From: Clostridia bacterium
Lineage (GTDB): Bacteria; Bacillota; Clostridia; UMGS1840; HGM11507
Reading direction: 5' to 3'
Assembly: GCA_017554615.1 (NCBI GenBank)
Contig: JAFZHY010000002.1
Coordinates: 1-64,000 of the forward strand
DNA: 64,000 bases
The position numbers and the translations under genes are program-made. The notes below the pieces were generated by a model. That model searched no databases and was not told where the DNA came from. It saw only the letters and a program-made list of their open reading frames with translations. The stretch's first letter is position 1. The number at the start of each line of letters is the position of its first letter. Shown in pieces: positions 666 through 46,932 of the stretch.

Positions 666-725
666 TTTATGTTCCCTCAATGTATAAAAGTATTATTTAT
701 ATCAGACAATCTTTATTGCAAGATA

Positions 726-754
726 ATTATACTATATAATTACTAATAATTCAA
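726..754 (-). promoter_or_regulatory. SigA-type promoter of the metallophosphoesterase gene
   Basis: On the minus strand TTGAAT, a 17-base spacer and TATAAT lie about 60 bases upstream of the start codon at 665. Confidence 0.65.
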
Positions 755-781
755 GAATGCAGATATATTTATTATATTTCC

Positions 782-810
782 TTTTCTAACATTTTTCTAG
801 CACTTTTCTA
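782..810. repeat. Three TTTTCTA direct repeats with 11-bp period
   Basis: TTTTCTA occurs at 782-788, 793-799 and 804-810, exactly one helical turn apart; related TTCTAAC runs occur near 935. Arrays like this near a tRNA junction resemble arm-type sites for tyrosine recombinases. The function is inferred. Confidence 0.5.
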
Positions 811-866
811 GCGAAAACCCAAAAAAGCTATTTAAAAGTGGCAATACCAAATCTGCTAGAACAGCA

Positions 867-900
867 AAGGCTTTGAAGGTTTTTAACCCCTCAAAGCCTT
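867..900. other. Hairpin inside the element end
   Basis: AAGGCTTTGA (867-876) is matched by TCAAAGCCTT (891-900), a perfect 10-bp stem with a 14-base loop. No long T-run follows directly on either strand, so it may be a weak terminator or part of the recombination site. Confidence 0.5.
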
Positions 901-979
901 GATTTTATGCGGTTTTTATCGCTTTTTAACTTCTTCTAACTTCCGCTTATTTCGTCTATCTAAAAAGACTGTCTAACAG

Positions 980-1035
980 CTCGAAATCGTTTTGTCCGCA
1001 AGGGCACGTGGGTTCGAATCCCACCTTCTCCGCCA
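980..1035 (+). pseudogene. 3' half of tRNA-Ser(CGA), displaced attachment-site fragment
   Basis: From the anticodon loop onward this is a normal class II serine tRNA: loop CTCGAAA (anticodon CGA at 982-984), a long variable arm (993-997 with 1002-1006), T arm GTGGG/CCCAC (1008-1012, 1020-1024), acceptor strand CTTCTCC (1025-1031), G and an encoded CCA (1033-1035). The 5' half is absent: no GGAGAAG, D arm or properly matched anticodon stem lies upstream, and the five bases before the loop (aacag) pair poorly. Loss starting at the anticodon loop is what integration into a tRNA gene leaves at the far end. Confidence 0.75.
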
Positions 1036-1037
1036 TG

Positions 1038-1070
1038 GCAAGGTTTTGTATAGTCAAAACCTTGCTTTTT
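1038..1070 (+). terminator. Terminator of the tRNA-Ser fragment
   Basis: GCAAGGTTTTG (1038-1048) pairs with CAAAACCTTGC (1055-1065), then TTTTT. It is retained behind the tRNA 3' half, as expected if this side is the original chromosome. Confidence 0.8.
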
Positions 1071-1129: not shown

Positions 1130-1570
1130 TTACTTTTCTATTTCATACGGCCAGTCGATAATACCACCGAATTCTTTTACATTGGTATAACCAAGCTTTG
1201 CAAGGCTTTCGGCTGCAATTTTGCTTCTGCGACCTGATCTGCAATACACAAGAATCTGTACATCCTTGTCGGGGAGCATTTCTTCTGACCTTTCTTCGAT
1301 TTCGGTATATGGGATAAGAATTGCGCCAGGGATATGACCGTTATCGTATTCATCTTGTTCTCTTACATCAAGAATTATATATTCTTCCCCTGAGGTCATT
1401 ATATTTTTGGCATTTTGTTGTGTTATTACTTTATACATTGCTTTTTCTCCTTTTTTGGAAACTATAATCGAAGTTGGGCCATCTGCACCTCCGATAATTC
1501 CTATACTTGTATCATTTGCACAAGCACAGAGCAATATACAAATACATATAATACATAATAATTTCTTCAT
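1130..1570 (-). CDS. Rhodanese-domain lipoprotein carrying an OadB-like GGADGPT segment
   Basis: 146 residues from ATG 1568-1570, which has an AAGGTAAC site; an upstream in-frame ATG lies inside hydE and is less likely. Residues 1-17 are a lipoprotein signal with lipobox L-C-A-C (Cys17). Residues 22-37 read [16 protein letters not shown], almost identical to the sodium-binding loop of the OadB protein at 20536-20583. Residues 45-146 are a single rhodanese domain with LDVRE, GHIPGA and the active-site loop CRSGRR (Cys110), followed by FGGIIDWPYE. A second ATG at 1436-1438 has a perfect AAGGAG site 8 bases upstream and could make the rhodanese alone. It would act in sulfur transfer at the outer membrane face, or in the cytoplasm if the short form is made. 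Confidence 0.85.
   Translation of the reverse strand: MKKLLCIICICILLCACANDTSIGIIGGADGPTSIIVSKKGEKAMYKVITQQNAKNIMTSGEEYIILDVREQDEYDNGHIPGAILIPYTEIEERSEEMLPDKDVQILVYCRSGRRSKIAAESLAKLGYTNVKEFGGIIDWPYEIEK
1436..1452 (-). promoter_or_regulatory. Strong internal ribosome site and ATG within the rhodanese gene
   Basis: AAGGAG at 1447-1452, 8 bases before ATG 1436-1438, in frame with the lipoprotein gene. It is a better site than that of the annotated start and matches the start of free-standing rhodaneses of this family. Confidence 0.6.
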
Positions 1571-1583
1571 ATCGTTACCTTTT

Positions 1584-2630
1584 TTACTCTTTATAGTCTC
1601 CTCTTTCAAATGAAATTTCATATCCTATTTTTTTCATTTCATCATTTAAGATTTTAAGGCTTTCGGCTCCTTCTGCGCCTGTTGAAAGTTTACCGTTATA
1701 GAGAGTATATTTATCTCTTTTATCATAAGGAGAGAGGTTTGGCATTATAACATTCGCTCCTGCTTTTATTCCCTCTTCTCTGCCATTTGGAGACACTGAA
1801 TTTAGTGCTGTGGTGGCAGGGATAAGGGCTTTATTACATAAAAGCCTTAAAATTCCTATTATAAAAGTTGTAAGTTTATAACTACCGTTTTCAAAATTTA
1901 AAAACGGGGTATCTTTATGGCTGATATACGGGCCGACGCCTATCATATGAGGTTTAAACTCTTTTATAAACATAATATCTTCTGCTATATTTGTAAGAGT
2001 CTGATAAGGGGCGCCTACCATAAACCCACAGCCTACCTGATATCCGATTTTTTTAAGGTTATAAAGACATTCGACTCTGTTTTTAATACTCATATTTTCA
2101 GGATGAAGTTTTGAGTAATGCTCACTGTTTATACTCTCATGCCTTAAAAGATATCTATTAGCTCCACAGTCAAAAAACTTTTTATAAGAGTCATAAGATT
2201 TTTCGCCCATAGAAAGTGTTATTGCGCAATCTGGGTATTTATTTCTTATTTCAGATATAATCTCACAGGTTAAATCATCTGTAAAATATCCGTCTTCCCC
2301 ACCCTGAAGTACAAAGGTGCGAAAGCCAAGATTATATCCTTTTTCACAACAGATAAGTATTTCTTCTTTTGAGAGCCTGTATCTTTCCAAATTAAGATTG
2401 CTTTTTCTTATTCCGCAATAGAAACAGTCATTCTTACAATAGTTTGAATACTCTATAAGACCTCTTATATATATTTTGTTTGAAAAATTATTTAAAGTTA
2501 CTTCTTTTGATTTATCAAACAAATAATTTCTTACTGATTGGTCATTACTGCTTTTAAGAAGATTAAGACATTCATCAAACGAAATATTTTGTTTTTCATA
2601 TAAATTATCAATAGTTTTAAAAACAGTCAT
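1584..2630 (-). CDS. hydE: [FeFe] hydrogenase H-cluster maturase HydE (radical SAM)
   Basis: 348 residues, normal for HydE. The radical-SAM cluster motif CX3CX2C is at Cys65, Cys69 and Cys72 in a YCKNDCFYCGIR context. LQGGED, the LRHES segment and GFMVGAPYQT match HydE rather than BioB. HydE acts with HydF and HydG to build the diiron subcluster of [FeFe] hydrogenase. Its likely client here is the group B hydrogenase at 43577-45040; hydF and hydG are not in the window. It is third in a minus-strand operon, one base after mnmA, and is followed 13 bases later by the rhodanese gene. Confidence 0.9.
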   Translation of the reverse strand: MTVFKTIDNLYEKQNISFDECLNLLKSSNDQSVRNYLFDKSKEVTLNNFSNKIYIRGLIEYSNYCKNDCFYCGIRKSNLNLERYRLSKEEILICCEKGYNLGFRTFVLQGGEDGYFTDDLTCEIISEIRNKYPDCAITLSMGEKSYDSYKKFFDCGANRYLLRHESINSEHYSKLHPENMSIKNRVECLYNLKKIGYQVGCGFMVGAPYQTLTNIAEDIMFIKEFKPHMIGVGPYISHKDTPFLNFENGSYKLTTFIIGILRLLCNKALIPATTALNSVSPNGREEGIKAGANVIMPNLSPYDKRDKYTLYNGKLSTGAEGAESLKILNDEMKKIGYEISFERGDYKE

Positions 2631-2631
2631 A

Positions 2632-3690
2632 CTATATTATAGTTCCTCCGCCGACAACGATATCGCCATTATAAAAGACTACTGCCTGACCTTTGGTTAT
2701 TGCTCTTTGAGGTTTATCAAATTTAACAAGCACATCTCCGTTATCAAGCATAGTAAGTGTTGCCGGTTCTTCTTTTTGTTTATATCTTGTTTTGGCTGTT
2801 ACTCTTAAGTTATCCTCTGGCTTATCAAAGGGAATAAAGTTAACATCGGTTGCTACCAAGGTATCGCTCATAAGGTCGTCCGAATAGCCTAAGACTACTT
2901 TGTTATTTAAAATATCTTTTTCGCATACAAACATAGAAGATTTTAAAGATAAGCCAAGACCTTTTCTCTGGCCTATGGTATAATTTATAATTCCTTTATG
3001 CTTACCCAAAACATTCCCTGACTTATCTACAAATTCCCCAGGGACACTTTTTACTCCCAGATATTCTTCAATAAATTCACCGTATTTTCCGTCTTTTATA
3101 AAACAGATATCCTGACTGTCAGGCTTATTGGCATTAACAAAATTTAGGGAATTTGCTATTTCTCTTATTTTATCCTTAGTTAAATTACCAAGAGGGAAAA
3201 GAATTTTGGATAGTTGTTTCTGAGTTAAGGAATAAAGAACATAACTTTGGTCTTTTGATTCATCCAGACCTTTTTTCAAAAGATATTTATTAAGCGTCTT
3301 ATCATATTCCACTCTTGCGTAATGGCCTGTAACAACTTTTGAATATCCCTCATTATCTGCCAAGTCAAGAATTTTTTTAAACTTTATATAACGGTTACAA
3401 TCTACACAGGGGTTAGGAGTTCCACCGTTAACATAGGTTGAAACAAATTTATCTATAACTTTTTTATTAAAATCTTCTGTGAAATTTATAACTTCATAAG
3501 GGATATCAAGGACATCACATACTTTTTTAGCATCCAAAATATCCTGATTAGTACAACAGGACGGATTTTCATCTTTAGTTGTATGAAGTTTAAGGGTAAC
3601 CCCTTTTAACAGATACCCTTCTTCTTTTATTAAATATGCGGCAACGGAACTATCCACGCCACCACTCATTGCAATTACAGCACTTTTCAT
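2632..3690 (-). CDS. mnmA: tRNA-specific 2-thiouridylase MnmA
   Basis: 352 residues, the usual length. The PP-loop SGGVDSS is at 9-15, the catalytic Cys95 lies in TPNPCVDC, and the partner Cys196 lies in DSQDICF. GHYARVE and the YTIGQRKGLG segment are also present. It thiolates U34 of tRNA Lys, Glu and Gln in the cytoplasm, using sulfur relayed from a cysteine desulfurase. It lies between ksgA (12-base gap) and hydE. Co-transcription with a rhodanese two genes downstream is suggestive for sulfur supply but does not prove it. Confidence 0.95.
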   Translation of the reverse strand: MKSAVIAMSGGVDSSVAAYLIKEEGYLLKGVTLKLHTTKDENPSCCTNQDILDAKKVCDVLDIPYEVINFTEDFNKKVIDKFVSTYVNGGTPNPCVDCNRYIKFKKILDLADNEGYSKVVTGHYARVEYDKTLNKYLLKKGLDESKDQSYVLYSLTQKQLSKILFPLGNLTKDKIREIANSLNFVNANKPDSQDICFIKDGKYGEFIEEYLGVKSVPGEFVDKSGNVLGKHKGIINYTIGQRKGLGLSLKSSMFVCEKDILNNKVVLGYSDDLMSDTLVATDVNFIPFDKPEDNLRVTAKTRYKQKEEPATLTMLDNGDVLVKFDKPQRAITKGQAVVFYNGDIVVGGGTII

Positions 3691-3702
3691 TATATCACCA
3701 AA

Positions 3703-4548
3703 TTAAAATAGTCTATCGGAGATTTTTGCAAATTCTTCAACTGATAATGTTTCTCCTCTTAAGTTACAGTCATATCCCAAATCGGTTATAATCTGTTCAA
3801 TTTCTGCTTTGCTTTTTTGTGTTATACCACTGTTTGAAATTCCGTTAAGAAATGTTTTTCTTCTTTGGTTAAAAGATGCTTTTATTAGTTTAAACATATT
3901 TTTTTCACTTAACGGTGTTACACTCGGAGTATCTAGTATATCAAGTTTTACCACTGCAGAATCTACATTAGGCGCAGGGATAAAACAATCTTTAGGTACA
4001 TTGGTTACAATACTTGATTTACTGTAATAATCTATAAGACAGGTTATAGCACCGTAGTCTTTACTTCCCGGTTTTGCAACAAGTCGGTCTGCGACTTCTT
4101 TTTGCACCATTACAGTAATTGATTTTAAATTAAATCTTCCTTCCAGAAGATATGTTAAAATCGGTGTTGTTATATAATACGGAAGATTTGCAACCAGGAT
4201 AGTATTATCACTCTTAATGATAGAATTTAAATCAAACTTTAAAACATCTTCGTTAATAAGGTTAAAGTTATCAAATTCCAAAAAGAGTTCATTTAACACA
4301 GGAATTAAAGAATTATCTATTTCAACAGATGTAACAGATTTTGCATATTTTAATAAAGACTGAGTAAGACTTCCAAACCCAGGCCCGATTTCAATAACAT
4401 CGGTATCCTTTGTTATTTTAGAATTATAGATAATACTTTCTACTATACTCTCATCACATAAAAAATTTTGCCCGAAGCCTTTTTTAAATTTAAATCCGTA
4501 TTTTGCACATATTTTTTTTATAACCGATATATCTGTTAAATTTTCCAT
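3703..4548 (-). CDS. rsmA: 16S rRNA (adenine1518/1519-N6)-dimethyltransferase
   Basis: 281 residues, also called KsgA. GQNFL (26-30), the SAM-binding EIGPGFGSL (53-61), and the catalytic NLPYY (121-125) are all present, followed by the family's FNQRRKTF stretch. It dimethylates two adjacent adenines of the 16S helix 45 loop during small-subunit assembly. It is first in its operon, with an AGGAGA site and a TTGAAT-17-TATAAT promoter at 4592-4620. Confidence 0.95.
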   Translation of the reverse strand: MENLTDISVIKKICAKYGFKFKKGFGQNFLCDESIVESIIYNSKITKDTDVIEIGPGFGSLTQSLLKYAKSVTSVEIDNSLIPVLNELFLEFDNFNLINEDVLKFDLNSIIKSDNTILVANLPYYITTPILTYLLEGRFNLKSITVMVQKEVADRLVAKPGSKDYGAITCLIDYYSKSSIVTNVPKDCFIPAPNVDSAVVKLDILDTPSVTPLSEKNMFKLIKASFNQRRKTFLNGISNSGITQKSKAEIEQIITDLGYDCNLRGETLSVEEFAKISDRLF

Positions 4549-46721: not shown

Positions 46722-46749
46722 GTAAAATAAAGCAATTTAATACTTCTTT

Positions 46750-46932
46750 CTCCGTCCTTTTGCCTGAGAGATTAACTTACAAATGTAAGTTTTGCACCTT
46801 CGGCATCCTCTTTTCTTAATTTAAGAATGGACTTCTCCGGAGCGCTATCCGTTTGCAGTCTTTACCATATAAAGCACCTGAGAGCGTTACTCCTTCGGCG
46901 GGCTGACCCTTTTCCTGCATCCTTCGCTTAGC
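46750..46932 (-). promoter_or_regulatory. Tandem glycine riboswitch
   Basis: Two glycine aptamers in series, read leftward. The first holds GCCGAAGGAGTAACGC, CTCTCAGG and its closing segments (about 46845-46932). The second holds GCCGAAGGTGCAAAAC, CTCTCAGGCAAAAGGAC and closes with GGAG (about 46750-46842). A promoter lies upstream and a terminator downstream. Glycine normally switches these on (family knowledge). Confidence 0.95.

Follow-up and report, generated by a model that had tools for sequence, protein, structure and literature searches.

The 64,000-nucleotide stretch analysed here, the window, forms the beginning of contig C2 in a Clostridia bacterium assembly of 1.28 Mb (27 contigs, 98.7% complete). 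It probably carries one end of an integrative element inserted at tRNA-Ser(CGA) which, together with a second end on contig C19 of the same assembly, would flank a single island that brings a whole replacement tRNA. According to this explanation, positions 785–1035 of the window would represent the attR of an element recombining at the sequence CTCGAAAT in the anticodon loop of the tRNA, and a tyrosine integrase would bind TCTARC arms on both sides of that core. C19 and the window would border one, perhaps composite, island with an unassembled interior, and a complete tRNA-Ser(CGA) located just inside the left end would compensate for the broken host gene. The features of the window on which this explanation is built are collected in Table 1.

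Table 1. Coordinates of the element end, the tRNA half and the neighbouring genes in the window
Feature	Position	Strand	Basis or remark
Calcineurin-like phosphoesterase gene, cargo, truncated by contig start	1..665	-	PF00149, E 2.6e-14
Conserved element end, attR side, 195 bp	785..979	+	Sharp left edge at TCTAAC, right edge at 979
Arm-type direct repeats TCTAAC/TCTAGC/TCTAGC, 11 bp apart; putative integrase arm-binding sites	785..812	+	Sole such cluster in the window
Hairpin within the element end (arms 867-882 and 885-900)	867..900	+	Kept among relatives
Core CTCGAAAT, proposed crossover region in the anticodon loop	980..987	+	Common to window end and C19 end
Displaced tRNA-Ser(CGA) 3' half	980..1035	+	Sequence and identity to G036 tRNA
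Intrinsic terminator of the tRNA half	1038..1070	+	Inverted repeat 1038-1048/1055-1065, then T-run
Rhodanese-like protein, host right flank; start near 1571 likely	1130..1621	-	PF00581, E 2.5e-19
Radical SAM, MnmA and KsgA genes, host right flank	1584..4548	-	Synteny with G001

The element end and the displaced tRNA half

The tRNA half reads from the anticodon loop CTCGAAA, which begins at 980, to the CCA ending at 1035. It is not a chance resemblance, because genome G036 has an intact tRNA-Ser(CGA) whose 3′ part matches it at all 56 bases (E 6e-23). G036 belongs to another family, and the corresponding tRNA half of G002, a genome of the same family, is 84% identical to that of the window. The bases to the left of 980 form no tRNA 5′ half, and neither ARAGORN nor Rfam reported a tRNA at this position. 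The initial annotation had described a tRNA that is perfect from the anticodon loop to CCA, keeps its terminator and lacks its 5′ half, a description borne out by the sequence and by both programs. Near-identical copies of the terminator sequence CAAGGTTTTGNATAGTCAAAACCTTG lie at 1039–1064 of the window, at G002:C32:45874–45899 and at G358:C1:52008–52033, all of them adjoining tRNA-Ser 3′ ends. The sequence is thus present in three genera (3 of 391 genomes) and was found nowhere else in the 391 genomes.

Evidence for an element on the left of the half comes from the distribution of the 195 bp block. A search of genome contigs with an exact 29-mer of the element end retrieved 24 other contigs from Clostridia MAGs, and the end was also found in 13 of 391 genomes of the class, distributed over nine families, with one match per genome and nearly the full query matched in 10 of the 13; the two sets overlap and are not additive. 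Some record titles name the source, which is the gut of goat, sheep, buffalo, yak or water deer. Twenty-five blocks were aligned, including that of the window, and 22 are complete to the core, the remaining three (L119, L120 and L121) ending before it. Column identity ranges from 0.87 to 1.0 up to position 976 and drops to the right of the core. The cargo to the left of TCTAAC differs between contigs and so does the sequence to the right of CTCGAAAT, where the 24 contigs diverge, mostly into different tRNA-Ser 3′ halves. Classification of the 22 complete blocks by an automatic rule, with L106 and L116 (variant before the core) corrected by eye, showed that 15 continue into a tRNA half that retains the T-loop and CCA/TCA, two into a shortened half (L116 and L124) and five into other DNA (L105, L109, L115, L117 and L126). 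The core itself is present in 19 of the 22 (17 of 20 recognised by the rule, plus L106 and L116 by eye). The right edge of the complete blocks falls at CTC(G/A)A, mostly within tRNA-Ser, and secondary sites that have only CTCGA or CTCAA (L105, L115 and L117) fit a crossover close to the beginning of the core. Judged from these comparisons, 785–979 is the end of a mobile element, with the element on its left and the host on its right. The initial annotation had already taken the locus for the footprint of an integration into a tRNA gene in this orientation, and the conserved end and the chromosomal genes to its right agree with it. Its range, 666–1070, encloses a real feature, but the useful part is 785–1070, since 666–784 is the upstream region of the cargo gene and is unconserved in relatives.

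Two readings dispense with an integrative element. If the block were a MITE-like short dispersed repeat that came to lie beside a tRNA half by chance, its conservation next to DNA that varies between contigs on its left would be understandable, but many copies per genome would be expected and each of the 13 genomes gave one match. The constant right edge of the 22 complete blocks, the mirroring of the arm repeats at a second end and the presence of relaxase, NikA/MobC and MobA_MobL genes inside elements with such ends also make this reading very improbable. The other reading is a decayed tRNA relic or an assembly chimera. The contig starts only 979 bp to the left and the half is functionless, as such an origin would have it; however, the same type of junction occurs in 17 of the 22 complete blocks, and 16 of these 17 come from other assemblies. 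We find this reading barely credible.

A second end on contig C19

A search of the rest of this genome for the missing tRNA-Ser 5′ part returned one place, C19:191–216 on the minus strand, with two mismatches. Read along that strand, C19 contains genes for MurA and a metallo-beta-lactamase-fold protein, the decayed tRNA-Ser 5′ part (altered in the acceptor and in the D-loop), 11 extra bases, CTCGAAAT, non-tRNA sequence and four TCTARC motifs, and the contig stops 164 bases past the core. Three TCTARC motifs within 45 bp occur once in the window, and a scan of 231,575 further bases, which are part of the genome, found such a cluster only at the C19 end. The two flanks fit a single tRNA-Ser(CGA) locus because of synteny with two relatives. 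In G001, of the same genus, homologues of the C19 flank genes (MurA, 51%; metallo-beta-lactamase-fold protein, 65%) precede tRNA-Ser(CGA), and in G005, of the same order, a rhodanese 61% identical to that of the window follows it. Further into the window, a glycine riboswitch was detected at 46742–46850 on the minus strand (54.1 bits).

The C19 end and the tRNA half of the window have only the 8-bp core in common. ARAGORN found no tRNA-Ser at the C19 end, and the sequence past the core is no tRNA half. The C19 end does not regenerate a tRNA; provided that C19 is the partner end, the target gene is not restored at the other side of the island. On the same condition, the host tRNA of this genome is left split between the C19 and window ends, with no tRNA at either. 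The initial annotation had predicted an intact tRNA-Ser(CGA) repeating 980–1035 beyond the left edge. The window begins its contig, no intact tRNA-Ser(CGA) was found in the assembly and the half is present in it once, contrary to that prediction.

These observations bear directly on the possibility of a classical island, in which attP contains the tRNA 3′ half, the intact tRNA lies at an end missing from the assembly and C19 represents the end of another, older insertion. Such an arrangement is the usual one in the Islander account (PMC4383910), a Monoglobus record displays it at tRNA-Ser(CGA), and the C19 and window halves pair poorly. Nevertheless, the C19 end has both the arm motif and the core of the window end, each of the two ends was found once in the bases scanned, both flanks fit one locus by synteny with G001 and G005, and the assembly contains no second copy of 980–1035. 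On this evidence we regard a classical island as unlikely.

The poor pairing deserves attention in itself. The anticodon stem formed by the C19 5′ part and the window 3′ half has two Watson–Crick and two GU pairs out of five, 11 nt are inserted before the core, and the joined sequence is called a tRNA only at relaxed ARAGORN thresholds. The two parts may therefore not derive from one original gene and, because they fit each other poorly, the site in this genome is probably remodelled or composite. One way of arriving at a composite island is tandem accretion, that is, successive insertions at one core, where the 5′ part on C19 would come from a first tRNA and 980–1035 from a second, carried in by an element that had inserted earlier. 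In L113 the element end directly abuts the integrase remnant of another element, in L087 a lone half lies between two elements, in G307 an element end directly precedes the left-end sequence of 76–82 bp, and the window half is identical to that of G036, from another family, while differing from that of G002, from its own. Nothing speaks directly against tandem accretion; it could coexist with whole-gene replacement and would account for the poor pairing. We consider it possible, although on the tentative side. The lone tRNA-Ser halves of L113 (right of the element end) and L087 (7486–8953) have an element on either side and an integrase, or what is left of one, immediately to their right; these are read as tandem arrays at tRNA-Ser(CGA).

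The sequence past the C19 core is shared with other genomes. Over 174 bp the C19 end is 91% identical to G358:C15, and the 76–82 bp between core and arms are common to C19, G358 and G307. Rfam assigned no family to the sequence after the core in L175 and L169. That the G307 post-core sequence might be a chromosomal RNA gene was considered and rejected, since C19 shows it to be element sequence. In L169 (G307:C8, 5099–5180) a window-type end runs directly into 82 bp of left-end sequence followed by ordinary DNA without arms, a junction that is possibly the relic of a tandem insertion or of a circle junction.

Complete tRNA-Ser(CGA) genes inside related elements

The proposal that the island of this genome carries a whole tRNA is drawn from relatives, since a complete tRNA lies just inside the left end in G358, where that end is 91% identical, and in G003 and G006, whose elements have different arms. 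In G358 (L175) the core at 1353–1360 is followed by arms at 1448–1490 and by an intact tRNA-Ser(CGA) at 1545–1639. G358:C15 reaches this complete gene 20 bp past the point that matches the C19 stop; the tRNA copy itself was not seen in the present genome, where C19 stops about 20 bp before the equivalent position. Beyond the tRNA, G358:C15 contains a YpsA-like gene, an integrase, MobA_MobL, an actin-like gene and a serine recombinase. Contig C1 of G358 also has a window-type end, which abuts a lone tRNA half, and no recognisable tRNA 5′ half was found in that genome.

Genome G003, of the same family, is a clean case of a split and replaced gene. On its contig C39 a decayed 5′ half is followed by the core, and 142 bp containing GTTCCC repeats separate the core from another tRNA-Ser(CGA), which is complete and distinct; more GTTCCC repeats and a convergent PF00589 integrase come next. 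Its contig C44 has a lone 3′ half behind GTTTCC repeats. When the 5′ flank from C39 was joined to the 3′ flank from C44, ARAGORN called a tRNA-Ser(CGA) at default settings, with an anticodon stem of 5/5, while each flank alone gave none. The only intact tRNA-Ser(CGA) seen in G003 is the one 142 bp inside the left end, two weaker matches being untyped. The arms of this element, GTTCCC/GTTTCC, differ from TCTARC. G006 shows an order like that of G003, with a weak 5′ half (score 30 against a shuffle maximum of 24–26). Altogether, the carried tRNA-Ser(CGA) lies 142–184 bp inside the core in G358, G003 and G006, a distance that the contig of the present genome ends before reaching.

A comparison of 19 distinct intact tRNA-Ser(CGA) loci (20 rows, of which L045 and L098 are one locus) identified CTCGAAA within 400 bp upstream in four (G003, G005, G006 and G358) and an integrase match within 2.5 kb downstream in four (G003, G006, G358 and G288); in G288 the integrase lies beyond a tRNA-Pro, itself 6 bp further on from tRNA-Ser(CGA). 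The upstream motif was present at three of the four loci with a downstream integrase and at 1 of the 15 without (one-sided chance about 0.016), a figure that refers to non-random loci and includes two self-hits, L088 and L175 having been among the integrase queries. No upstream core was found at five further tRNA-Ser(CGA) loci from phage and plasmid records, one of which has an integrase remnant. The classical layout of the Monoglobus record consists of an integrase remnant after tRNA-Ser(CGA) with no upstream core. In L085 (G002) and L059 (G005) the 3′ end of an intact tRNA-Ser(CGA), and no other part of it, is repeated some 100–150 bp further on, and these are best read as small scars of lost insertions, as classical elements leave.

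The observations in relatives raise a broader proposal, that a widely distributed group of mobile islands in gut Clostridia breaks tRNA-Ser(CGA) without repairing it and brings a complete copy less than 200 bp from the crossover, the carried tRNA becoming the next landing site. This may well be so, although we would not yet call it probable. If true, an 8-bp core in the anticodon loop would suffice for entry without a matching acceptor stem, distant hosts would be enterable, and the wide host range of the element end (13 of 391 genomes of the class, nine families) would receive a reason at the level of sequence. The host would depend on the island for its tRNA-Ser(CGA), and tandem arrays would be favoured. 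Where the carried tRNA is the sole copy, the island would be tied to the codon reading of its host, and loss of the island would cost the host a tRNA. The present genome has a tRNA-Ser(UGA), and wobble reading by such a tRNA may soften the cost of losing tRNA-Ser(CGA). Islands that replace the whole tRNA would also be missed or mismapped by a rule that looks for a regenerated gene and a fragment, as happened in the prediction of the initial annotation.

Cargo, integrases and known systems

The phosphoesterase gene at the left end of the window is 79% identical in DNA sequence to a gene of G017, and in L118 its antisense reading is found to the left of the same element end, about 2.4 kb away. 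The cargo of relatives to the left of the block includes a RibD_C-domain protein and, by eye, apparent MATE, NADH oxidase and Fic genes. Nineteen contigs have a cargo ORF of at least 100 aa, and in 18 of them the nearest one points away from the block, as if the element end carried a promoter or regulatory region. Genes for mobility are present inside elements with such ends, namely relaxases (PF03432 and PF03389, in G358 and L120), NikA/MobC, which accompanies the relaxase in the L120 cargo, MobA_MobL and actin-like (ParM-type) genes. No relaxase was seen in the readable 979 bp of the element in this genome, and inspection by eye of the small contigs of the assembly for its interior recognised only housekeeping-type genes. 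Conjugation genes suspected in G003:C44 were unsupported by Pfam.

No integrase of the element was found in the assembly, where its interior is unassembled. The genome has three full integrase genes and fragments, none linked to the C19 or window ends. In a clustering that comprised this genome and 11 genomes with the element end, two of the three grouped with integrases of 9 and 7 of the 12 genomes; these two we take to be XerC/XerD-like. The 279-aa integrase of G358, a candidate for the cognate enzyme, is present in 6 of the 11 element-end genomes, in 13 copies, and no TCTARC cluster was seen beside its other copies. In G379 a remnant integrase adjoins TTTTCTAAC repeats, which suggests that this type of arm belongs to tyrosine integrases.

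Two marks of tRNA islands are found here, a displaced fragment at one end and element DNA that recurs at the same site in other genomes. The Islander account gives as the usual rule that an island restores its target gene, and the software seeks a regenerated gene together with a displaced fragment (PMC4383910). Like the islands of that class, the present element has its target in the anticodon loop, leaves a lone 3′ half at its far end, has repeats on either side of the core and carries cargo in between. It differs from them in that the C19 end supplies no 3′ half, the host gene is unregenerated and relatives carry a complete tRNA. Whole-gene replacement, which we infer for this island, has a phage precedent in a study of Rhizobium phages, where a whole tRNA-Leu is a presumed replacement and partial replacement is the commoner situation (PMC8631192). 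The vTRX32-1 group resembles the present case in its short tRNA core, its broken host gene and a whole tRNA proposed as replacement. In contrast, the tRNA-Leu of vTRX32-1 lacks the core and is suggested there to block further insertion, whereas the tRNA-Ser carried here keeps CTCGAAA in its anticodon loop and would stay a target (PMC8631192). Tycheposons adjoining tRNA genes are described in another report (PMC10872708). Similarity to integrative mobilizable/conjugative elements of Clostridia is seen in the relaxases, NikA/MobC and actin-like genes of elements with such ends; compared with them, the present element is known from 979 bp at one end and from the C19 end. No report of whole-tRNA replacement by Clostridia islands at tRNA-Ser(CGA) was found in the literature covered, most subscription papers falling outside that scope.

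There was no sign of a phage in viral contigs, where none of three exact patterns matched, and the matches in plasmid and phage collections were limited to tRNA-like or phosphoesterase sequences. Four short, unannotated records named ‘Bacteriophage sp.’ (L166, MT840079.1; L167, MT838611.1; L284, MT835633.1; L285, MT838415.1) hold tRNA-Ser(CGA) genes, a lone half in the case of MT840079.1. The ORFs of two such records were read; one resembles a mobile element with ParA/ParB-like genes and the other looks like ordinary bacterial DNA.
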